A DNA stretch of 64,000 nt, taken from the NCBI RefSeq assembly GCF_026151205.1, contig NC_087076.1:8842902-8906901 (forward strand). The letters run 5' to 3'. The notes under the pieces are model-generated. The model was not told the DNA's origin. It saw only the letters and a list, made by a program, of their open reading frames with translations, and ran no database searches. How positions within the stretch are numbered: position 1 is the stretch's first letter; the number at the start of each line of letters is the position of its first letter. Shown here in pieces: positions 1,942 to 46,366 of this stretch. The stretch comes from Bolinopsis microptera. Taxonomy: Eukaryota > Ctenophora > Tentaculata > Lobata > Bolinopsidae. The translations under genes were made by a program, and so were the position numbers.

Positions 1942-4900
1942 TCAATCATCATCATACTCCTCCTCATCGGAATAATAACAATCACTGTCGTTATAATCAT
2001 AATCATAATCAGAGTCAAGATTTAGATCGCCCATATTTGGGGCCTCTTCTATTGGTTTAGTTTTGAACGTGTACTCTGCCAGAGTCAACGGTATCGTCAC
2101 TCCATCACCGTCCGCTAAAGTCTTGTTCTTTTCTATCAGATCCCTGAAAATGGCGTGGTTAAAGCTTATGTGCAATAAAATGTTACTTAGATACTCAGTG
2201 CAGAAAATATCGAAACAGATCATCTTAATTTTACATCAGAACAGCAATTTATTCATGACCGGTTAACAGCTTAGTCTGGCAATAGAATCAACCACGGTGG
2301 CGAAGCTCATTATACCATAAAATAGACAGCATTTTCGTTTTGATGCGGTAATGATTATTTTCGTCGACAATAAACCGCCACCATGATCAGTTGTTAAATT
2401 CGGTTTTTGTGACCTTTGAAATGAGAATAGTAAACATCATCTCGAATTGTTTAGCTGCTTAGAGAAACCGATTGTCATGTAAGGGACGAACCGAAGTATG
2501 AACCCGCAATGTGCTGACAAAGGGAGGTTCAAGGTTACCGGTTTGAGCAGGTTCCAAAACGTGGTGTCATCAAAATTCGTCGCGACCGGCAGTTGGTTAG
2601 TCAGCGCGCTCGTAGCGCGCATTTCAAAGTGCTGTCAATACAGAATTTAACTACGAATCTCGACATAAATAAGAGTGCTAACACTGCGCGCGTAAACGAT
2701 TGTAAACAAAACTTCCGGAGAATACCTGCCAAACAAAACAGAGCGCACTGAATGGTTCGGCGGAGTCTCATGATGTATTTGTAAATATTACATCGTTATT
2801 TAAACTATCGATCATGCTAAATGGACTAGATGAGGTACTTGACCGGCGTACTGTCCAAGTCATAGAACGTGACCGAAACTGAGTGCTGAGTAGTTCTCAG
2901 ACCATCTCAAATTTCAGACACCTGGCTTTCTACCAACATTTCCAGGAATGCACTGTTTATTGGTTAATTAAGACCCTTGAGTTGAACGTGGTATCACATC
3001 GTAATCCGTTTTAATATTTTTTTAAGAAATAGCAATTTCAAGTCACGTACTTTGGCAAAAATCCAAGAATATCGACCAATTGTATAGTAAGCCTCCCACT
3101 TTTCCTAAGTGTTAAGATCGCATTACAAATCTTGGCGTGCCAACACAACTCTACCGGAAAACTTAGTAATTAAATGTTACTTTGTGATAATATAAAGTGG
3201 CAAAGAATAGAAACTAACTTTATTCGATCGACGTATGCTGGATCGTTGTTAGTGTTCCATTTCCTGTACATGACAGCGGCGTCAACATTAGCCGGAGAGT
3301 TGATATTTGGTGAGTTTAACATGCTGGCTATACTTATCAACACGGTCCTGAAATATAAATCCGTTATTGAGCTGTTATGTGTATTATTAGTGTAAGGAGT
3401 GAAATGTGTTATATCACAACTGGGTGTAATGTGTAGTGTAATTTGCAGTGTAATGTGTGGTGTAATGTGTAGTGTAATGTGCAGTTTAATGTGCAGTGTA
3501 ATGTGTAGTGTAATGTGTAGTGTAATGTGCAGTGTAATGTGCAGTGTAATGTGCAGTATAATGTGTAGTTTAATGTGTAGTGTAATGTGTAGTGTAATGT
3601 GCAGTGTAATGTGTAGTGTAATGTGTAGTGTAATGTGTAGTTTAATGTGTAGTGTAATGTGTAGTGTAATGTGTAGTGTAATGTGTAGTTCAATGTGTAG
3701 TGTAATGTGCAGTGTAATGTGTAGTGTAATGTGTAGTTTAATGTGTAGTGTAATGTGCAGTTTAATGTGTAGTGTAATGTGTAGTGTAATGTGTAGTTTA
3801 ATGTGTGGTGTAATGTGTAGTGTAATGTGCAGTTTAATGTGCAGTGTAATGTGTAGTGTAATGTGTAGTGTAATGTGCAGTGTAATGTGCAGTGTAATGT
3901 GCAGTGTAATGTGTAGTTTAATGTGTAGTGTAATGTGTAGTGTAATGTGTAGTGTAATGTGTAGTGTAATGTGTAGTGTAATGTGTAGTGTAATGTGTAG
4001 TGTAATGTGTAGTTCAATGTGTAGTGTAATGTGCAGTGTAATGTGTAGTGTAATGTGTAGTTTAATGTGTAGTGTAATGTGCAGTTTAATGTGTAGTGTA
4101 ATGTGTAGTTTAATGTGTAGTGTAATGTGTAGTGTAATGTGCAGTGTAATGTGCAGTGTAATGTGTAGTGTAATGTGTAGTTCAATGTGTAGTGTAATGT
4201 GCAGTGTAATGTGTAGTTTAATGTGTAGTGTAATGTGTAGTGTAATGTGCAGTGTAATGTGCAGTGTAATGTGTAGTGTAATGTGTAGTTCAATGTGTAG
4301 TGTAATAGCTGTTAACGTGTAGTAAGAGGTGAAATGAGAGCTGTGTTCAGTTTTGTTCAGTAGAGTGTAAGGGGTGAAGTGATGTGGTTGCGTTTGTTTG
4401 GATGCCACTTGTCAACTCTTAACAAGGGCTCGGTCACCGCTTTACAAGTCATCACTTTTCTCGCTTAATAATATACAATCACGTTATATGTTATATTTAC
4501 ATGGTACACATCTATATATCAGAACATTATAACGTAATACGGTCACACCCTTACATGTGTGTGTTTGTGTGTAAGTACAGTGACTACTGTTACAACTGTG
4601 CTAAAGCTGACTCAGTGATATAAATCTGTGGAACTTGGTGTAACGAACGTGTTGTGATTTGTTAATGTTGCAATAGCATGCTTCCTGAGCAGCGCTGCTT
4701 TGTACACAAGACACATTGACGCTTTACCATTTTATTTACGGTCTAACGGGATTTACGCTCTCATTTAAAACAGAAGATTCTGATCATCTAATTCGTGGCG
4801 TGATAGATTGGAAGAGAGCAATTTTTCATGATTTCAGCTATTTTTTTGGGATTATTCCAAATTTGTATCGTGGCAAGAGACCAGAGTCTAGGCTTGGTAA

Positions 4901-7900
4901 GGTGTAAAGTTAACTTTTGAAGAGAGTCTCGAATCACATTGAAAGCGATGTAACAGAGCCAATATATTTAATGTTGCCATGGGGTGGTAAGTCCCATTTC
5001 ATTGCAGTTACTTAGTCCGGAGAGATCATAGTTACAGGGTTACTGCCTCTCATTATAATCGTCTTTGTCTTTGTCCCATTATATTTATAAACGTATTACA
5101 AACGAATTATCTGAAATTCACCCCTTCCATGTAGAATTATGTTTCAAAGTTAGATGTCAAATTAGTAAAAACAATCCAATTACCAATACAACAATCCCTG
5201 TACACTCGTGACTCGATCAAATATTTCTTGGCAGACACAGAGCTTGTTTCAAACTGCTTTGTTTTGTTTTATAAGACTGTATCATTGGAGAAGTGGATTT
5301 AAGGTTTTACCACGTTGCTAGAATCAATGTTTAAATATCACGCCGAAATTACAAGATTTTGCAAGAACTTATCGATGATGCCCATATTTGGATATTACAA
5401 ATACCGTCTGATCATAAGATGGCTACTTTTAAAATAACAATTTAATTAAACAACTATGTTAACCTTTACATAGTTGTAATAAATAACTTAGGGCCCCCCT
5501 CCCCCCCCAACTTAATAATAATAACTGGAATGCCGCAGTTTCCGTAGCATAATATACCGCGAGCCATAAGTGGAATAATCTCATATTTTTTAGTAGCGTG
5601 AGCACCTTCGGCAGAAAATCAATTTCATGTTCTAATATTATAAATGTTTCCGCCGCGAATCAAACTCAAGATCATTAAAGAAAAATGGCCGCACGGCGCA
5701 CACGTCGAGATAACTACTTCTGCTGCAGATAACTAACACTATGCTGCTCTTACAGATCTAAGCTTTGATCCTCATGATGGAAAATGAGACATTCTCTCAC
5801 AAGTCGCACAATTTAGCCACGTCACCTTAGTCGCTGTTAGCACTCATCAACATTTGAAACTCATTACAACGACCTCCCCCAGCTCAGCTCAAATATTAAA
5901 TCCTATGTTACACATTCAATCACGTCACACTCATTTACATATTTCATCGCTCCAAACAATGAATTTGCCACCCACATCACATCTTAGAGAAACACGCCCC
6001 CCGAATCTCGCTCGAGAATTTTACAAAGAAGAAAATCAAACAATGGACACCGCTCTGAAGAGCTTCCCCAGAGCTTGTGAAACTTCTCACAGTACGTTTT
6101 TTCTCCTGGCAGCATGCCAGAAATAATCAAACATACGAGATATTACTGACAGTGAGCGATACAAAGGATCTTATATATCATTATCATTGTGATACACTGA
6201 TACGTGTGTGTGTGTGTGAGAGTTACAGTGCTAGCTTTCAACAACAGGCTAAAAGCTATGATGATAAAGACACATGTGTAATTCACTGTCAACGGTCCCA
6301 TTATCACATCTTGTTAACCTATAATCTCTGTTACATTATATGCTAGTTGGACAACTGTTATAAATTGACTAAGAGTATTGACTATAACTATTGAGGTAAC
6401 ATCATATTCCAACATAGCATCTTACGTAATGCTAGCAAACCAGCTGCACTAGATTTTAATAATAACGGAGGCTGTAAGAAGTATTATCATATTTGCAGCA
6501 GTGCGGAGATTATGTACATGTGGTTGTGATGGTGTGTGTGTGTTATTGGCAGGTTACATGGCAACAACACACAATTCAAACTACCACATTTCCACATATT
6601 ATTATGTGTGTAACTGTCATGTTGGTAGAGTCACGCACAGTGTGTCCGGTGTACTGACTACACAGCTGTGTTTACAGTGAAGAGGGTGTGAAGTGTGTTA
6701 ACAACATCCTACACACGCAACCTCTATTAGCAACTCAGTTACTGAGTAAGTGTGCAGAATCTGTGATGTTATCTTATTAGTATCTGAGGTTACTGACATT
6801 TAACCTTCAATACAGCAACCTAAATGATTTGATTTTGTTTCTTTGAAAAATCCAATTTTACGTAGATATCAAAACACCTTAGATCAAAGATATGAGGGCA
6901 GGGACTAGCAACCAGCAACCAGGGTCGTGGGTGGGCATTTTTAATATTATAAGTCAGATTTTTTTGGTAATTACATATGTATACGGGTACCGGCCTTACA
7001 AAATGACAGGCCTCACAAAATGACAGCCCACATAGACCATGCTGTAGCTTAGGTTCCCTATACATTGAACCCTATTCCTTTTACTGTATGAAAGAAAAAG
7101 CATTAATTAACACTTCCCAAGGAATGATAATGACATAGAATCTATATTTCTTACATAAATATGGACGTTTTTGCTGTTCAGTCATTGCCCCGTCAAACTG
7201 TTACCCAGCATGGAGACCAAAGTTTAGAATTTAACCCCAGAAAACCAGGTACTACCATGACTTATGTCAATCAAAGACTACTCTGGTCAAATAAAAAAAC
7301 TGATTTAGTGACTTTGGTAGAAGAAATGACAAAAAAATGACCTAGCCTCACAAAATGACAGTGTTATGCCTCACAAAATGACAGTTTTATTTTATGATAC
7401 AAAGATGGCATATTTATATTGGATGCCCCTTGCCTAATTATTGGTATTCTTAAACCCAGTAAGCTTATGATGAGCCTAAATGTGTTTGTTTGATCATCAA
7501 TTTTGAACAAAATGCCTCACAAAATGACACCGAAAAGCCTTACAAAATGACAATTTTTCAGATTGAATTACTTTCATCATCTAAAATGGATCAGAAACAG
7601 TCAATACAAGAAGGGGTTAAAAATAATCATCATCTGACAGTTAACAATCAAGTAGCATTAAAAAAGTGCAGTTCTGATATCAAAACTTTGATTTCAAACT
7701 CTTTGATTTCAAACTCTGATTTCAAAACTCAACGAAATAAAGCTTCTATTTTGTGAAAGCAGAGAGTAATAGCAACTCCTAAAACATGTTAAACGTTAAC
7801 TAAACACTGAAAAGTGATCTATCCAGTCATTGAAAATATCAAATATAGCCAAATACTGTGTTCAAGTATGAAAACAAAAAATGATTTTTACGCCTCACAA

Positions 7901-23317: not shown

Positions 23318-23483
23318 TAACACTTGACTCGGGCCACAATCCACATATTTTGCCTCGGTGCTCGGGCCAGCAAGAAAACAACAATTTCAAGAAAACAACA
23401 ATTTTATTTAGTATCAATTAAAGCAGACAAAAATGTATTTCATATATATATAACTAGCACGAACTTTAGATCAGATATCTTAG

Positions 23484-23667
23484 GGGACTTGGAGTAGCAA
23501 GAGATTGACTAGAAGGTATATACCTTTTACAAAGATACGTCGAGAAGAATCCAGGGTGATACAGGATCGGAGAGTGCAGACCAAAAGTTTACGCACCCAC
23601 CTTTGCCTCCTGAGTTCTTGGGTGGACATAAATTTATGCAAACTTGGTCGTTTATACTCCAAGTCCC
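23484..23667. repeat. 184-bp segment with 13-bp perfect inverted ends
   Basis: GGGACTTGGAGTA at 23484-23496 and its complement TACTCCAAGTCCC at 23655-23667. No clear target duplication. Possibly a very short MITE; function unknown. Confidence 0.45.
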
Positions 23668-23945
23668 TTTCTTAAAAGAAGTAGTATTAACTATGTCTAG
23701 AGTTAGCTTCGTTCAATAATAACAATTTCAATATAATCAATATCAATACCAGATAAACCTACCGAATAAATTATTAAATATCAATTAATTCATTCCGATA
23801 AAAAATGTTATAAATTTAGATATTTAGTATCTAAAAACATTACAACAAATGGTTAAAAAGCGCCCAAAATCGATTTGAAAGATTTTCTGTCTATAGTACA
23901 ATCATGATAGTAATAGTAAGTGTGTGCCGCTGCAATTAGATTTGA

Positions 23946-25541
23946 TTACTGCAATTTAAAATTGTTTGGAGTCCAAGTATCTTTTAAGTCAGCTGCCTGT
24001 GCTTGTATTAATAGTGTTTTTAAGCTAATGGACGTTTCTAGGCAATTGCTTGAAGTTAAAATTTTTTTATGAACAGCGTTCCAAAGCTTGGCTGCATTAA
24101 ACAAAAAGGTATTTGATTTATTTAGGAGAATAACCGTGAGACTCGTTGCACGGTTTGAAATGTTGATAGCCTCATAAAGGGAGTATGGGCAGTGGTACTT
24201 GATAATCTTAGAGAATTCTAAGATGCAGTGATATTTGTACAAGTTTTGAGCCGTAAGAATTTTTAATCTATTAAAAATGGGTTTTGTATGCTCCTTTTCA
24301 AAGTGTTTATGGTCTAGTTTTTGCATACCGTATGGTCTAGTACGTGCACATGTTGATTGTTTATCTAAATATGAGTCAAGGTCGCCAAAAAGGATCCTTA
24401 TACAGTGCTTCTGTGTGATGAAAAGACTATCATTGGACCGTTCTTTGAGGACAACACCCCAAACACTTATACCATAACTGAGATGTGATTCAAAAAGAGC
24501 GTTATATATTTTCAAATATAGTTCAGAAGGTATCGATTGCCGAATTCTGCAGATTGCACCAGTCATAGATCGCAGTTTTTTACGGATGTAGTGCATGTGG
24601 GCAATCCAGTTTAGCTTACTATCTATAACAACACCTAAGAATTTGGTATCCTTGACTTTAGTAATAACCTTACCATTGATGAATATTGATCTAGATTCAT
24701 CTAGCAGGATAGCAAATGGTCTGGTCCGTGCACAGGTGTCATCATATTCAGAGGCAGGTTTAAAATGTATGTAGCAGCATTTGGACATGTTGATATGAAA
24801 TAGATTACATTTCATGTAAATCGAGACATGTTTAAGTACTAAGTTGGCTTTTTTGTATGTTGCTTCTCTAGATGGTCCTGATATGAAGATATTAGTGTCA
24901 TCAGCATAAAGTACAAATTTCACCTCACTGTCTGAAAAGCAGTTTACTATATCGTTCATATAATACAATAGGAAGAGTAACGGCCCTAGAATTGACCCTT
25001 GTGGTACTCCAAATTTCACGTCCATTGTTTCTGATGGTACATCGTTATACATAACATACTGCTTTCTGTTAGTCAAATAGCTTTTTAGTAAGGCAAGTGC
25101 TGTGCCCCTAATACCGTAGGAATTTAATTTGCATAAAAGAATATCGTGATCAAGGGTGTCGAAGGCTTTGCTCAAGTCAATGAATATCCCTAGGACATGT
25201 TTATTGCTTGCCAGAGACTTAGTAACGGAGTCTATAGATTTGTGAAGAGCATGGGTGGTAGAATGGCCTTTTCTAAATCCAAACTGTGAGTCTGTTAGTA
25301 CACCTTTAGATGTGAAGAAATTATAGAGGCGTTTATAAATGACCTTCTCAAAGATCTTTCCAAATAAAGGTAATATTGATACAGGCCGATAATTTTCAAT
25401 GCATTCCTTATTGTCTTTCGTCAATATAATTAGCTGGCTCATCATCAATGAGGCCATTGTTTGCAAAGTGGGGAGCTTGGTAGAAAGGGTTATACCGAAC
25501 GATATCATTGGCATCAGTGCATATTTTGCAGTATGTTGCAT
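23946..25541 (-). CDS. Retrotransposon ORF2 remnant: reverse transcriptase of CR1/L2 type
   Basis: The open frame is 531 codons, but the first 30 or so overlap the zinc-finger ORF in another frame and are probably not native. Real homology starts near LTKDNKECIENYRPVSILP (RT motif 1 region). The fingers and palm follow: KAFDTLDHDILL with the motif A aspartate, FGVPQGSILGPLLFLLY (motif B), and FVLYADDTNIF with the catalytic YADD (motif C). After these come KFLGVVIDSKLNW (thumb side) and a C-terminal region with CARTRP repeats and LWNAV. No inactivating stop or frameshift is seen within RT. No APE endonuclease is encoded upstream. Such a copy could still supply RT but would need a nick from elsewhere. 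Confidence 0.85.
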   Translation of the reverse strand: MQHTAKYALMPMISFGITLSTKLPTLQTMASLMMSQLIILTKDNKECIENYRPVSILPLFGKIFEKVIYKRLYNFFTSKGVLTDSQFGFRKGHSTTHALHKSIDSVTKSLASNKHVLGIFIDLSKAFDTLDHDILLCKLNSYGIRGTALALLKSYLTNRKQYVMYNDVPSETMDVKFGVPQGSILGPLLFLLYYMNDIVNCFSDSEVKFVLYADDTNIFISGPSREATYKKANLVLKHVSIYMKCNLFHINMSKCCYIHFKPASEYDDTCARTRPFAILLDESRSIFINGKVITKVKDTKFLGVVIDSKLNWIAHMHYIRKKLRSMTGAICRIRQSIPSELYLKIYNALFESHLSYGISVWGVVLKERSNDSLFITQKHCIRILFGDLDSYLDKQSTCARTRPYGMQKLDHKHFEKEHTKPIFNRLKILTAQNLYKYHCILEFSKIIKYHCPYSLYEAINISNRATSLTVILLNKSNTFLFNAAKLWNAVHKKILTSSNCLETSISLKTLLIQAQAADLKDTWTPNNFKLQ

Positions 25542-25683
25542 CTCGAAATTTGACTATGTTATCATCAGTTTTGCACTTTTTGTGCATTATTTTGTCACAC
25601 ATCTGACAAGTTATGAATGGATGTCCAGCACGCACAGGTCTATTGCAGCAGCAGCAAATTTCGCATATTAGTTTGGCTATCAT
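25408..25683 (-). CDS. Retrotransposon ORF2 N-terminal PHD-like zinc finger (truncated ORF2)
   Basis: 91 aa. Start ATG overlaps the ORF1 stop in ATGA, a stop-restart arrangement seen in many LINEs. The cysteine/histidine pattern is C-rich CEICCCC, then CQMC, MHKKC and YCKIC, which fits a PHD (C4HC3-like) finger at residues about 8-58. RYNPFY follows, a linker type I associate with the region just before the APE endonuclease of CR1/L2 ORF2. The frame then ends at TAA without entering an endonuclease or RT. Taken as the N-terminal remnant of ORF2 after deletion. Confidence 0.7.
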   Translation of the reverse strand: MIAKLICEICCCCNRPVRAGHPFITCQMCDKIMHKKCKTDDNIVKFRDATYCKICTDANDIVRYNPFYQAPHFANNGLIDDEPANYIDERQ

Positions 25684-27728
25684 GACATAACTACGGATCT
25701 ACGAGAACGTGGGGAAAATCTTTTTTGGGCCTTGGTAACATCACTGAACAACCTCCCATCAACGGGGCTACCTAGGATCTTATGTGCAATTGCCCGGGAG
25801 AGTTTAAAGATACCGCTTGACCCCAGGTGGATTGGGTCATCCGGCTTCTTGTATCTACAAAACTGCTTGTCCAGTAGACCCTCCTCATCAACAAAACTAT
25901 CAAAATCTAAAGTGCCTATTCTAGTATTAGTATTACAGTACCCAAATAATAAACTATTAAACTCCATGGCTCTGTCATTCAGCCAGGAGGACCTAGTTGG
26001 AAGGATGGGTGAGACAATAACTTTAGAATATGGACACATATCACAAATATTCTTGAGCTTCTTCGTCAGCTCATTAGCCCAATGTTTAACATCACCCCCT
26101 CCCCTCTTGATATCATTTATACCACAGTGTACTACAACGTTCTTGTATCCAACACAAAGAACAGGGTCTAACTGATCTATTGTGAAACATTCGATTCTTT
26201 TCCCAGGCAGCTTGTGTCCAAATGTTCCTTTTCCAGCCCCGAATTTGAGGAACCGGGTGTTTGAATCACCGACAATCAATGTTGCATTGATGCTCCTGCT
26301 TACGTAGCGGAAGGTAATACTGTATCTTAAGTCCCTCCTTTCTGTGCTTTTATCAATTCGGTGGTCCCAAAGAAACTGGGACTGTTTGCTCATGACATAG
26401 AGACTACGTCCCTCTATTGTCTCTACGACCTCTCCTTCAAGCTGATCCTTTTTTGTGAATTTTACAGAGCAATCACCACCTAAGGATACTGTAAATATGG
26501 AACTATCATGGACCAGAGATTGCTCGTTATCAGAGTGCTTAGGAAGAAAGCTGTTCCCATCAGTGTACCGATTTATCAAGCACTGATTGATTGTTGAACT
26601 AGGACATTCTTCCTTTATCTTGGAGACAAGCTCATTCAGAACATCAGGGAAGTCTGTCGATTTTGGTTTTTCAGCTTTAGCCCCGGGGTATTGATAAGGT
26701 TCGCCAAAGCTCAGAACCCCATGCCCATTTTCGGAGTTACTATCAAAGGCTTCCTTATGTTGGTCTAAGAAAACTGAAAGCTCAGAGTTCAATTTTTCAT
26801 CTACAAATTCTGGGACATACGACAGAATATGCTTGGACTTAGGGTCGTCTACACTTGCATGCTTCTGTGCATCTAGGAGAAGCTGTTCTTGGTCCATTTC
26901 ACATGGTGCAGGTGACCCTATATTAAAAGGAGGCATGGGCAGATCAGGGGTGGAAACATTTGATGACCTACTGTTTTTAAAACAGTTTATGTCAAGTTTG
27001 AGCTCAGCAAGCTTGCTGTTGATGGAGTCGAGAGTTTTGAGATGGCTATCGTTGTCTTTAAGGTTCTTGATGGACTTCTGAATGGCTTCTAGAGAATCTT
27101 GTAGAGAGCTACCATCCGAGGTAGTGTGACCCATTGGCATACTCAAGCTGCAGGGAGCTGACAAGTAGGAAGAGGACTTGACTTCGTTTTCATATCTCTG
27201 TCCACTTACTACAGCACAAACACTTTCAGCAAGACCTAGCAGGGATAGGAGACCTTCTGCTAAAGTTAGTTTGTTCAGGGATGAACAACTCTTGATCATG
27301 GCTGGTGTAATGATCGCAAACTTGTTTACTTCAAGTTTCAGGATACTGCAAATGTTAAACTTGATTAAGTCTACCTCTGAGCGTAGGTTCTGTGCGTGGG
27401 TTAACAGATAGGTGTCGAGGGGAGCAGATCTATTTGAGAAGAAACTAAGGAGACTGCTGACATTTTTGTCTTCTTCTGAGTCCTGATTTTCTGAATGAAT
27501 TAGTTTATCGACATCTCTAAGCATTTCGTCAATATTGTCAATGACTGAAGCTGAGGAAGTGGTGGGTGTATCCTGATCGGGAACCGTAGTGGATGAAGTC
27601 TGGTCTGCACCAGGTTGAGGTTTCTCACACTTTTCTTGAGCGTCAGTGGGGGTTTCCATCATGGTGAAGAAGCAATGGGGGTACCAGGCAGACCAGGGGG
27701 CACCTTCACGTCCAACTAGCACACTCAC
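25680..27728 (-). CDS. Retrotransposon ORF1: AlkB-like 2OG-Fe(II) dioxygenase plus SGNH esterase
   Basis: 682 aa. Residues 25-120 are low-complexity and acidic. About 205-250 can form a coiled coil, a common ORF1 trait for multimerisation. Residues about 335-476 look like an AlkB-type dioxygenase: NRYTDG at 386-391, iron ligands His398 and Asp400 in KHSDNE, the VSLGG strand, distal His456 in LWDHRID, and arginines at 468 and 474 in LRYSITFR, the usual 2-oxoglutarate contacts. Residues about 482-655 look like an SGNH hydrolase: GDSN with Ser489 (block I), CGIND at 535-539 with Asn538 (block III), and DPIHLG with Asp631 and His634 (block V). AlkB enzymes demethylate nucleic acid bases; SGNH domains are lipases/esterases. 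An RNA-protective or repair role on element RNA is inference. The alternative start is MMETPTD at residue 23. It ends in ATGA, shared with the next ORF. Confidence 0.85.
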   Translation of the reverse strand: MSVLVGREGAPWSAWYPHCFFTMMETPTDAQEKCEKPQPGADQTSSTTVPDQDTPTTSSASVIDNIDEMLRDVDKLIHSENQDSEEDKNVSSLLSFFSNRSAPLDTYLLTHAQNLRSEVDLIKFNICSILKLEVNKFAIITPAMIKSCSSLNKLTLAEGLLSLLGLAESVCAVVSGQRYENEVKSSSYLSAPCSLSMPMGHTTSDGSSLQDSLEAIQKSIKNLKDNDSHLKTLDSINSKLAELKLDINCFKNSRSSNVSTPDLPMPPFNIGSPAPCEMDQEQLLLDAQKHASVDDPKSKHILSYVPEFVDEKLNSELSVFLDQHKEAFDSNSENGHGVLSFGEPYQYPGAKAEKPKSTDFPDVLNELVSKIKEECPSSTINQCLINRYTDGNSFLPKHSDNEQSLVHDSSIFTVSLGGDCSVKFTKKDQLEGEVVETIEGRSLYVMSKQSQFLWDHRIDKSTERRDLRYSITFRYVSRSINATLIVGDSNTRFLKFGAGKGTFGHKLPGKRIECFTIDQLDPVLCVGYKNVVVHCGINDIKRGGGDVKHWANELTKKLKNICDMCPYSKVIVSPILPTRSSWLNDRAMEFNSLLFGYCNTNTRIGTLDFDSFVDEEGLLDKQFCRYKKPDDPIHLGSSGIFKLSRAIAHKILGSPVDGRLFSDVTKAQKRFSPRSRRSVVMS

Positions 27729-27760
27729 TGAAAAGAAGGAAGAGCAGAAAGCAGTTTGAA

Positions 27761-28204
27761 ATGTTCTGTTGTGGAAAACAATGAAAGTGTAAACTGGATT
27801 AGTCAGAATGATTCAAAAGATTGAAAAATTGAACAGACTGACGGACTACGACACATTGGACAAGAGAGTGAGTGAGTATGAAAAATATGAGGTGGTTGGA
27901 CTGGCAAGCCCTATCATTTAATCAGAATACATTACATATAATCCATAAGCCATATATATATGTCAGCCTGTTCTTGGAGCACAGCCCCAAAAGATATCAG
28001 AAGCACCTCTGATAAAATATTCAAACAATATACACATAATATAACAATGACCCTATATAAAATTCTGTAAAAATGGTACAAATTTTAAAACTGAGGTAAA
28101 AATAAAAATAAAACCCTTTGTAATAATATATATAAAATCCACTAAATCACATCACAACAAAAAGCAGTTTAGACCCCCATCCAACTAGAGCACTCCATGA
28201 CCTT
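27761..28204 (-). other. Junction of two retrotransposons: 3' UTR of the upstream element and 5' UTR of the downstream one
   Basis: Non-coding, AT-rich. Lies after the stop of the PHD-RT element (28205) and before ORF1 of the AlkB element (27728), both reading leftward. The exact junction is not visible to me. Confidence 0.45.
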
Positions 28205-31200
28205 TTAGGGTTTAAGAGTGTTGATCAGGTTAAGGTCCAAATCACTTATTGCCGTGGGTGGAAGGGTTCTGGTACCTCTGTATCCCCTGATAGAGATTAT
28301 ACAGGTTCTCAGTAGATCAAAACGCAGTCTGCGTCTGACAAATGACATCACATCACAATACCGTTGGCCTTTCTTTAGGCTGATCTTTTCAGCGAGATGT
28401 TTTAGAAACTGTGAAGCCTCAGTTGCCATTCCTCCTGTAGTACTGAACACCAGTGGCGTGAAGGTAGCCTTTTCAACATTGAGGACTCTGTCATTGTACT
28501 CACGTTTTTTGCTTTTCTCGTGAGATTGGTACATCTGTGAGATGCTCTTGTCACTGTTGGACTGGGCTTGAGGGTGAAGTACCCTTACATCTGTGAATGC
28601 CCTGTCCAGCGGCGACCAAAACGATCTCGCACTGATGTCCAGTCTTGCACCATCCTGTCTATTTGTTCCATTAGATAGTTCAAGTGTGTGAGGAACGGAG
28701 AGAAGCTGGGGTTCTGTTTCAACGTCTTTGCAAACAGTGGTTAGGAGTTCAGCTATTGTATCTCTTAGTGAATTGTGTCTAAGTGAAACGTAGCCTCCGA
28801 TTTTGCAGGTTAGAGTATGGTTGATATGATTTTGATTTCCACATACACATAGGGGACTTCTGTTAGCTGTAGACAGTGTAAGATTATATCTGAGTGAGAG
28901 GGCATCAAAGAATTCTTGTTTGTTAAGGACGTACCCACATGCTTTTAGAGGGAGTGTGGATAACCAAATGGATGCTCCTTTTTCACTAAGGAGTTCTAAT
29001 TGCCTTTGTGTTGATGGGGATACCTCATTCATAAGAGTTTCACGTTGGTGTTTGTAAAGCTCTTCCTTACGCTTCTTTACTTCACTTATGATGTCATGCT
29101 GCAGTTCTTCGTTTAGTTGGAAAGTAGTAAGCTGTTGAAAAACTGCTTCTGTGAGCTGTTTTGTAGCATTTACTGAGTTAGTGTACTCCATCTCTGCTGT
29201 TGATGTGCAGTCTGGAATGCTCAGCCCGCCCATTCTTGCAGGAAGTGAAGCTATTTTTCTGATTTGATCAGGCACAAAACTTTTGCCCATAATGGCTGGT
29301 ATAAAGTCTTCCTTGACACAATATTCCAAGTGTTTCAGATGGTCGGAAATCCCTGGGGTTGTACGGCAAACAAAATTCCATCTTTTGGAGGTTCCATAGA
29401 TGAAAGCGGAGTAGGCTAGCTGGGGTTCGTTTGCAGCTATTTCGACGAGTCCAAGAATGTCTGCTTTCCAACTTTCGGTCTCCTTTAGTATGAACTCTTT
29501 TACCCCTTCTTCTGATCCAATATATGATCCAAGATAACGGTGGCCTTTGGTAGTGATCTGAACATCTGGAAAGAGTTCCTTAGCTTTGGTTGCATGCTCT
29601 GGTTTCACTATCAACCATGTCTTGCTGGGTTTTGGGTAATACCCATACATGGGACCATGATCTTTAAGGTCCTCCCACCATTTCGTGAGTTGATCAAGTT
29701 TACCCCCTGCTGCTGAGTCGTCAGCATACCAAACTTGTTTGGGATAAGTGTTTGGTTCCCTGTCTGATTCTGGTTCTGTTTCAGCTTCTGTCTGTTTAAC
29801 CTGGACTTCTCTGAGCAGAGGCATTAGGCTCAGTGCATACCATCCGAGTGCACAGGTATCTCCCTGTGTAGTTCCTTCCTGAGATTGTAAGTGGTCATCA
29901 CTGTTGGCAATGAATAGGTTAGCTTCTTGTCTGTATGTATTTAGGATGTAAGTGAATAGCTCTGGACAGGTGTATCGAAGATTCCTAAGGGCTGTGTTGC
30001 GATTTAATGCATTGAAGGCGTTTTCAGCATCAACAAGCAGGATCGCTTCTGTGGATTCCTCTTCAAAGATCTTTCTGACTGCATGAATGGCCGCTTCCAC
30101 TCCTCCTTGTAAGCCACCACACAGTTGCATGGGTGCTGTGTTCATGATAATGTCCTGTTTCAATGTGGTCATCACTGCTTTTCCGACTATTCTTCTAAGG
30201 ACTTCACCAATCCCAATGGGTCTAACCCCTGGGTCTTTATCAAGGGGGATGAGGCGACCTGCTGTGTATGTTTTCAGGTGGTCGGGCTGTATCTTTTGGC
30301 AACACAGCTTTCTGGCCAAAACTGCAACTGCTTCTTTTAGAAGTTCAGGCTTTTTCTTAAACTGCTTAGAGCAGAGAATATGCTGCCATGTCTCTGCATC
30401 AGTTCCTGAGGGCCCACCAGATCCGCTGAGGTCTCTTGCAACCTTTTCAATTCTGCTGGAATCAATGGAATCAAATATGACGTTGTCTACTTCTTCAATG
30501 GGTCCCTTCATCAGACTAGATTCGAGTGATGGGCTGCTTTCGGGGTGTTTCTTTATGAGTTCCTGTATGACAGTAGGGCTTGTGTCCAGGAGTTTACTTC
30601 TCTGGCTCCCATTCCATCTTAAGGCTGCGGATACTTTTCCTAGTAACATGAGTCGTGTAAAGACTTTGTTGTGATGTCCTGGGCTGTACTTAGATTTGAG
30701 TAGACGATCTTGTATTGATTTACATTCCCTAGCGAGCTTCTCTATTTCGCCATCTTTCCATAGTTGGAGTCTTCTTTCCAGGTGTGCTACATGGTCTTTG
30801 GCTTTAGAGGATTTGGAGGGTTTCTGGAGCAGGAGGGGAAAAATTATAAGCGTCATAGTAATTGCAACACTCTCAAGGTTAGAGCCACTGTTAAGGAGAT
30901 TGATGGTATTGGCAACTTCCTCAATAAAACTCTCTCCTATCTTGCCTTTCGGTACCTTAAACATGTTCTTCTTCCAAAGGACTACCCTCTTGTAGATAGA
31001 GTCTACAGCTGGCCTTATCTTTAAACCTTTTAGGACTCCCCATTTTGCATTGTTGATCGATGCGATGACTGCATCCGGGGGAGGTAAAGTGGATGTAGTA
31101 AGGCGTTGTTTTTCACAGTTACCACATACAAATGCTATGTCAAACTTTTCATCTTGGAGGTGTTTGTATTCTTTGGTGTTGATTTCCTCACAAATGGGAT

Positions 31201-45538: not shown

Positions 45539-45820
45539 TCCCCTGATTTATTTATTATTGATATTGTTTGATTGTGCCGTAAAAATAAATATTTGTTTTA
45601 TTAAAATATTTGTTTTATTAAACTTACTAATGGGCCATATATATATCCAGGTGAGACATTTATTCACATTCTCCAGTTGTGATGTTGCAATCTATCAGTT
45701 ACTTTGACAACCCCCTCCATTATACCCTCAACACAATCTATACGACCCAGACTTGGTGGTCACGTTCTACCTTTACAGAGATCAGTAGCTTGTAGAGAAT
45801 GTAGATTCCTGTCAGAAACC

Positions 45821-46011
45821 TGTCCCAATACATTCCGTCTAGTTAACATTCTGTCCCAGTACATTCCGTCTAGTTAACATTCTGTCCCAGTACATTCCGT
45901 CTAGTTAACATTCTGTTCCAGTACATTCCGTCTAGTTAACATTCTGTCCCAGTACATTCCGTCTAGTTAACATTCTGTCCCAGTACATTCCGTCTAGTTA
46001 ACATTCTGTCC
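45821..46011. repeat. 31-bp tandem repeat, six copies
   Basis: Unit starts TGTCCCAGTACATTCCGTCT and continues AGTTAACATTC. Copies start at 45821, 45852, 45883, 45914, 45945 and 45976, with a partial copy at 46007. Only single-base variants (CCCAA, TTCCA), so recently expanded. Confidence 0.95.
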
Positions 46012-46366
46012 TCTTCATCTCTCCACGCTGGAGAGTTTTTCAATTAACTACCTATCAGACTTATTGGTATACCACTACAGTTGAATCTTAATAAGCCCGG
46101 CTTATTAAACTGTGATACACTTCTTTTCTCTCTCTGCCTTGTTAAGATATATTGGTGTTGCGCACGTGACCGATATAATCTCTGAACTGTAGTGGTACAG
46201 ATCGTGTAATACAGGTCTAGCACGTGTCACAAGCATCACCCTCAAGGTCTGGATCTTTTAAACTTGGAAGCTTTCTCTTTACAGGCTTATTGGCCAATTA
46301 ATTGCATCCTAACCTTACCTTACATAACCCTCATCTGATACAGCATGCTCAAAAACTTAAAGGGAT

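Follow-up and report, generated by a model that had tools for sequence, protein, structure and literature searches.

The window, by which we mean the whole 64,000-nt stretch of Bolinopsis microptera DNA that was analysed, contains on its minus strand a LINE copy (23371-28003) that is both 5'-truncated and internally deleted. It aligns to a longer copy, L031, in two blocks of 98.9% and 97.5% nucleotide identity, and the homology ends at 28003 and 23371. What remains of the 5' untranslated region (27729-28003), as recognized by alignment to L031 and other copies, lacks the spliced-leader 5' end of full-length copies; relative to L031, the first 277 nt are missing. ORF1 follows (25680-27728), and its product carries an AlkB-type Fe(II)/2OG dioxygenase domain (residues 321-478; 26295-26768) and, downstream of it, an SGNH/GDSL esterase domain (residues 481-660; 25749-26288). 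The start codon of ORF2 (25681-25683) overlaps the ORF1 stop codon as ATGA. ORF2 begins with a PHD-like zinc finger (25421-25683), which matches L031 up to position 3004 and is cut there by a 1656-nt internal deletion (junction at 25419-25421; L031 positions 3005-4660 absent) that took the end of the finger, the endonuclease, and the N-terminal part of the reverse transcriptase. The 3' part of ORF2 encodes the rest of the reverse transcriptase and the C-terminus (23946-25419; RVT_1 E=3e-34; 97.5% identity to L031 positions 4661-6722), and the copy ends in two units of the tandem repeat AAATTGTTGTTTTCTTG without poly(A) (23371-23404).

As the alignment to L031 resumes in a second block across the 1656-nt deletion, the reverse transcriptase ORF at 23946-25541 is the remainder of the same element's ORF2, not part of another element. 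Owing to its 5' truncation and the loss of 1.66 kb of ORF2, the window copy is a dead relic, immobile on its own. The motif TCARTRP occurs twice in the ORF2 remainder (23946-25541, minus strand) and once in another copy, L037.

The 682-codon frame of ORF1 had been picked out in an earlier note on this DNA, made from the sequence by a model, and its coordinates, 25680-27728, are confirmed exactly; it lies on the minus strand, a point that the note left unstated. Since the frame starts at a GTG (bacterial table) and its first in-frame ATG is residue 23 (27662), the protein is likely about 660 aa long. The residues assigned to AlkB (the ligands His398, Asp400, and His456, with Arg468 and Arg474) and to the SGNH hydrolase (Ser489, Asn538, Asp631, and His634) all stand where the note had placed them. 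For the AlkB assignment, the profile search that had been proposed gave a significant match of Pfam 2OG-FeII_Oxy_2 (PF13532) to residues 342-474, over its cut-off (E=1.2e-17), and the best solved relatives of the window ORF1 alone, searched by phmmer against structures, were ALKBH8, ALKBH3, and ALKBH2; the profile match to ALKBH3 is given below. The Lipase_GDSL_2 profile (PF13472) matches residues 513-638 with E=3e-4, at 21.7 bits compared with a cut-off of 32.9, and the Helitron copy described below reaches 31.6 bits against the same curated cut-off. Because these scores lie under the cut-off, the SGNH assignment is based on the catalytic blocks and on how well they are conserved, and the presence of an SGNH domain downstream of AlkB is borne out by catalytic residues that are conserved across lineages. 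The possible coiled coil that had been suggested in ORF1 was not confirmed, as 41 of 300 shuffled sequences did as well in a heptad test; coiled-coil matches in two related loci, L045 and L046, are weak. No RNA-binding domain was identified in ORF1, and a single-sequence AlphaFold prediction of residues 319-682 gave no usable fold (pLDDT 35).

Intact relatives of the element show what the window copy has lost. In L034, L035, L036, L039, and L040, and in L041 and L042, which belong to a family only 53% identical, an AlkB-SGNH ORF1 (about 680-711 codons, stop to stop) and an ORF2 of 1139-1183 aa meet at a start/stop overlap, and ORF2 encodes a PHD-like finger recognized by inspection, an APE endonuclease, and a reverse transcriptase. 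The reverse transcriptase matches RVT_1 with E values of 1e-36 to 5e-40, the endonuclease matches are weak to marginal (Exo_endo_phos 0.008-0.011; Exo_endo_phos_2 0.036 to 1.7e-4), and the domain search gave no RNase H match. The ATGA overlap is common to the window copy and seven others (L031, L034-L037, L041, and L042), the 53%-identical family included; in place of it, the L039/L040 subfamily has ATGGTAG at the boundary. The 3' ends of these LINEs, like that in the window, consist of the short tandem repeat and have no poly(A). That the AlkB-SGNH frame is the ORF1 of a LINE, as had been proposed, is thus supported by the PHD-APE-RT ORF2 of the intact copies. The element fits the CR1/L2 group by architecture; its reverse transcriptase was compared with solved structures and matches those of LINE-1 and R2.

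The 5' ends of the full-length copies have a feature of their own. Their first approximately 42 nt (TTTTAATACTTTCAACACTACTATATAACAAATAATTTGAG) recur with 97-100% identity in the family with the 53%-identical ORF1, and beyond them the similarity ends. A 32-mer of this leader occurs 1,123 times in the genome, while its reversed control does not occur at all. GT follows 244 matches of a slightly shorter core, and more than 30 of these matches form a tandem array whose period is 591 nt (C3:13511056-13533390). Each unit of the array consists of the leader, GTAAGA, stem-loops, and an Sm-like site (ATCTTTTGG), with a sub-threshold match to SmY snRNA, so that the array looks like a cluster of spliced-leader RNA genes. 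As this putative cluster carries the leader, these LINEs probably give rise to trans-spliced transcripts that are copied with the leader attached. The end of the leader itself (TTTGAG|G after TATAAC) might serve as the trans-splice acceptor in the next cycle. Other AlkB-carrying LINE families have the leader as well, although not all of them, and it was recorded at the LINE start in L031 (7118-7144) and 24 other loci.

The window ORF1 is one of many. Counting itself, it has 65 scored matches in the genome it comes from, at 49-98% identity; they fall in steps of about 98, 94, 77-80, and 49-58%, and most are free of internal stops. The AlkB family search of the genome yielded at least 150 scored matches among 588 candidates, nearly all with E<=1e-15 and situated in open frames of 142 to 3388 codons, and a LINE AlkB query gave 714 candidates. 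AlkB candidates thus number in the hundreds, mostly within long open frames of mobile elements. A scored AlkB match lies directly upstream of SGNH in 95 of the 119 matches to one SGNH domain. When five of the remaining 24 were read, four contained AlkB with its ligands and the fifth was truncated inside AlkB; the notion that some related SGNH ORF1s lack AlkB was therefore rejected. Among the representatives read, the order AlkB then SGNH is found in L044, L047-L050, L059, L062, L063, and L065, and an endonuclease-RT ORF2 comes next wherever the DNA extends so far, with the PHD-like finger present or absent. In L059 a PHD finger occurs in ORF1 too, and in L045 and L046 AlkB is N-terminal and SGNH C-terminal.

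Both histidines, the aspartate, both arginines, and a glutamate four residues after the first ligand histidine (H+4) are invariant in 16 divergent AlkB domains that share 20-78% identity with that in the window, and the Fe and 2OG ligands are invariant even among lineages only 20-33% identical. The SGNH serine, asparagine, and DxxH block are kept in all lineages compared, with the exception of one aspartate: in L049 (1501-2097), whose ORF1 is otherwise open, the DxxH block of the SGNH domain lacks its Asp. The earlier note had proposed comparing dN/dS and ligand conservation across copies; between subfamilies, the NG86 dN/dS is 0.04-0.20 for AlkB and 0.07-0.11 for SGNH, the lowest ratios being rough since dS is saturated in some pairs. 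These low values indicate that both domains are kept by purifying selection in active lineages. The same note had named a non-significant AlkB match, copies without the HxD...H residues, and a segment confined to one copy as grounds for abandoning its reading; what was found instead is a significant match, retention of HxD...H in other copies, and an abundance of copies. The AlkB segments have also moved. Between L001 and L014, dS is about 2.0 in AlkB and 0.28 in SGNH, and the identity jumps near residues 450-500, which points to exchange of AlkB segments between LINE subfamilies. In the comparison of L001 with L014 and L023, the swapped segment covers ORF1 residues of about 320-480.

The same pair of domains occurs in Helitrons, in frames of up to 3388 codons and in the order SGNH then AlkB (L051, L057, and L058). 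L057 matches PF13472 with E=2.8e-7 and PF13532 with E=8e-23, and farther along the L051 frame, in L060, are matches to Helitron_like_N (2.7e-23) and PIF1 (3e-21). Proline/alanine-rich and EGVSSSGPVSL repeats lie between the SGNH, AlkB, and Rep/helicase parts of these frames (L051, L057, L058, and L060). AlkB-SGNH is the usual ORF1 of many LINE lineages, and Helitrons of this genome possess the pair too. The genome further contains host-like AlkB genes (L052-L054). In the AlkB tree, in which the only outgroups were ALKBH2/3-like host genes and bacterial AlkB and the transposon AlkBs form a separate branch, the Helitrons and the main LINE group join with support of 99/95, apart from the host-like genes and bacterial AlkB. 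All transposon AlkBs, that of L045 included, fall on one side of a branch supported at 94/93, which is not decisive, and a separate origin of the L045/L046 AlkB is possible. The simplest reading of these sequences is that the AlkB-SGNH module was exchanged between LINEs and Helitrons in this host lineage.

As to the subtype of the dioxygenase, a profile of the transposon AlkB domains matched ALKBH3 (4e-27) and ALKBH2 (3e-24) far more strongly than ALKBH8 (6e-13) and E. coli AlkB (about 1e-10). There was also a weak match (3e-4) to a structure named 'DNA N6-methyl adenine demethylase', and neither ALKBH5 nor FTO was named among the matches to E=0.001. By these similarities, the element's AlkB is of the ALKBH2/3-like type. 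All 16 transposon AlkB domains have Glu as the acidic residue at H+4. In AlkB the corresponding residue, D135, is needed for m1A, and its replacement in D135N lowers kcat/Km from 3.7 to 0.018 (PMC11065319). The substrates of ALKBH3 are single-stranded DNA and RNA; it is also listed with m6A in RNA, and the substrate ranges of the AlkB family overlap (PMC11065319). Taken together, the ALKBH2/3-like profile and the acidic H+4 residue make erasure of m6A a less likely function than repair of m1A/m3C-type methylation, be it in RNA or cDNA of the element itself or in Helitron single-stranded DNA. The suggestion in the earlier note of a base demethylase acting on element RNA or cDNA is compatible with this and would be narrowed to the ALKBH2/3 type.

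Where a template contains m1A or m3C, base pairing is blocked, and reverse transcription with it. On balance, we lean towards the view that this abundant CR1/L2-like LINE uses its AlkB-SGNH ORF1 to clear pairing-blocking base methylation from element RNA or cDNA, and that Helitrons do so from their single-stranded DNA. The ORF1 protein would coat the element RNA in cis, as in other LINEs, and AlkB would oxidatively remove m1A, m3C, and similar lesions, whether they lie in the RNA template or in the cDNA strand, and thereby let reverse transcription run through. If the ORF1 protein does coat the RNA, a demethylase borne on it could clear the template in cis. In Helitrons, the substrate of AlkB may be the single-stranded DNA intermediate. 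For the esterase, membrane or RNP targeting is the probable role, as proposed for zebrafish ZfL2-1, and the fusion would bring both activities to one particle. The feature common to LINEs and Helitrons is a single-stranded intermediate. All of the evolutionary evidence comes from one genome, which by itself cannot demonstrate that AlkB aids transposition.

Other explanations have to be weighed against clearance of pairing-blocking lesions. AlkB could instead erase regulatory m6A on element RNA and thereby free the element from host epitranscriptomic control, as proposed for an orchid Ty3/gypsy element. This has a precedent in that orchid enzyme, an AlkB that a transposon encodes and for which m6A demethylation has been measured (PMC9289625), and the listing of ALKBH3 itself with m6A in RNA (PMC11065319) agrees with it. 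We nevertheless consider it unlikely, because the orchid enzyme is nested within ALKBH5, whereas the profile of the transposon domains finds ALKBH3 and ALKBH2, and neither ALKBH5 nor FTO is named among its matches to E=0.001, because the acidic residue of the m1A/m3C enzymes is kept, and because Helitrons, which move as DNA, carry AlkB too. The exposed single-stranded DNA that LINEs and Helitrons have in common is in keeping with an action on DNA at the target site or the new copy, for example removal of 6mA or repair of the single strand exposed during target-primed synthesis, by which chromatin would be opened or silencing prevented. The weak profile matches to the 6mA demethylase structure and the PHD-like fingers in ORF2 and in one ORF1 also speak for such a role; yet the strongest similarity is to ALKBH3 and ALKBH2 and not to the 6mA enzymes. 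Moreover, the ORF1 protein is expected to be mainly an RNA partner. We regard a role on DNA as quite unlikely.

A third view would leave the enzymatic activities unused, with AlkB and SGNH retained for their folds, which would serve to bind RNA or assemble the particle. The ORF1 of ZfL2-1 enhances retrotransposition but was reported to be non-essential (PMC3905857), and the lineage represented by L049 lacks the aspartate of its SGNH DxxH block. A mere scaffold would have no need of the Fe and 2OG ligands, all of which are invariant at identities of about 20-30%, and this makes a purely structural role very unlikely. As host-like AlkB genes are present in the genome, one could also imagine a chance insertion of such a gene in a single LINE copy; the probability of this is practically negligible, for the domain is in frame in many copies, many subfamilies, and two transposon classes. 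With 65 matches to the window ORF1 and ligands invariant in 16 AlkB domains, a one-copy insertion of a host gene was rejected. Beyond lesion clearance by the LINE itself, we can imagine, as a speculation to which we give little credence, that AlkB and SGNH together constitute a portable two-enzyme module needed by unrelated selfish elements, LINEs and Helitrons alike, to strip from their single-stranded nucleic acids base modifications placed by the host or the environment. In such a counter-defence, both enzymes would work on the same substrate or particle.

AlkB domains occur in plant RNA virus replicases. Those replicases and the LINEs described here are alike in being, or serving, selfish RNA replicators with AlkB; the former belong to RNA viruses and not to LINEs, and the comparison made here is one of domain content. 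Viral contigs contained no relative of the proteins of the window ORF1, L059, L057, L044, L045, or L063. Among known retrotransposons, the closest counterpart is the esterase (Type IV) ORF1 of CR1/L2 LINEs, e.g., zebrafish ZfL2-1, which is similar in having an SGNH esterase in ORF1, APE and RT in ORF2, and PHD fingers in the same LINE groups (PMC3905857, PMC4120745). The ZfL2-1 esterase is active and binds lipids (PMC3905857). In contrast to Type IV, the ORF1 described here also includes an AlkB dioxygenase, which usually sits immediately ahead of the esterase. For the CR1/L2/Jockey group, the published list of ORF1 types comprises RRM, CCHC, L1-type, PHD, and esterase (PMC4120745); AlkB is neither among them nor mentioned in the paper on the ZfL2-1 esterase (PMC3905857).

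Transposon-encoded AlkB-family enzymes are also known from Phalaenopsis, in which Ty3/gypsy elements contain an ALKBH5-like enzyme with measured m6A activity (PMC9289625). However, that enzyme is encoded by a separate ORF of an LTR element, belongs to the ALKBH5 clade, and has been shown to act on m6A, whereas the present one is part of a LINE ORF1 fusion and is of the ALKBH2/3 type as judged by sequence. Accessory enzymes common to unrelated element classes have a parallel in bdelloids, whose LTR elements and Athena/Terminon elements have GDSL and DEDDy ORFs in common (PMC5408684). The bdelloid elements are without AlkB, while the pair described here links LINEs with a DNA transposon, the Helitron. 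Finally, an SGNH gene captured by a Helitron is described for platyfish (PMC4021074), in which, as here, an SGNH hydrolase is found in a Helitron; that gene was captured from the host, and no mention of AlkB was found in the portion of that source searched, whereas the Helitrons described here encode SGNH and AlkB within a single giant ORF. The earlier note did not know the fusion as a described ORF1 class. Likewise, our literature search, with Repbase and most subscription papers outside its range, found no description of an AlkB-SGNH ORF1 fusion or of AlkB in Helitrons.

With these elements, a predicted nucleic-acid demethylase joins the domains known from LINE ORF1 proteins. Its pairing with an esterase recurs in a DNA transposon, and the needs of parasites in one animal lineage can thus be read from their genes. 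The elements also allow a test of whether transposon replication is held back by base methylation of RNA or single-stranded DNA, a limit already suspected in some plant viruses and in the orchid elements. Copies with open frames could serve as compact new AlkB enzymes for m1A/m3C mapping.

Apart from the LINE copy, the window contains a 919-aa frame (28205-30964, minus strand) that ends about 200 nt upstream of it and matches RVT_1 below the cut-off (E=1.8e-6); it had no solved relative at E 0.01 and represents an unplaced retroelement. A long array of a 12-nt tandem repeat extends from position 3292 onwards and registered as 73 copies of a 300-nt reference, and a second tandem array, with a 31-nt unit (CTGTCCCAGTACATTCCGTCTAGTTAACATT), occupies positions 45789-46036.
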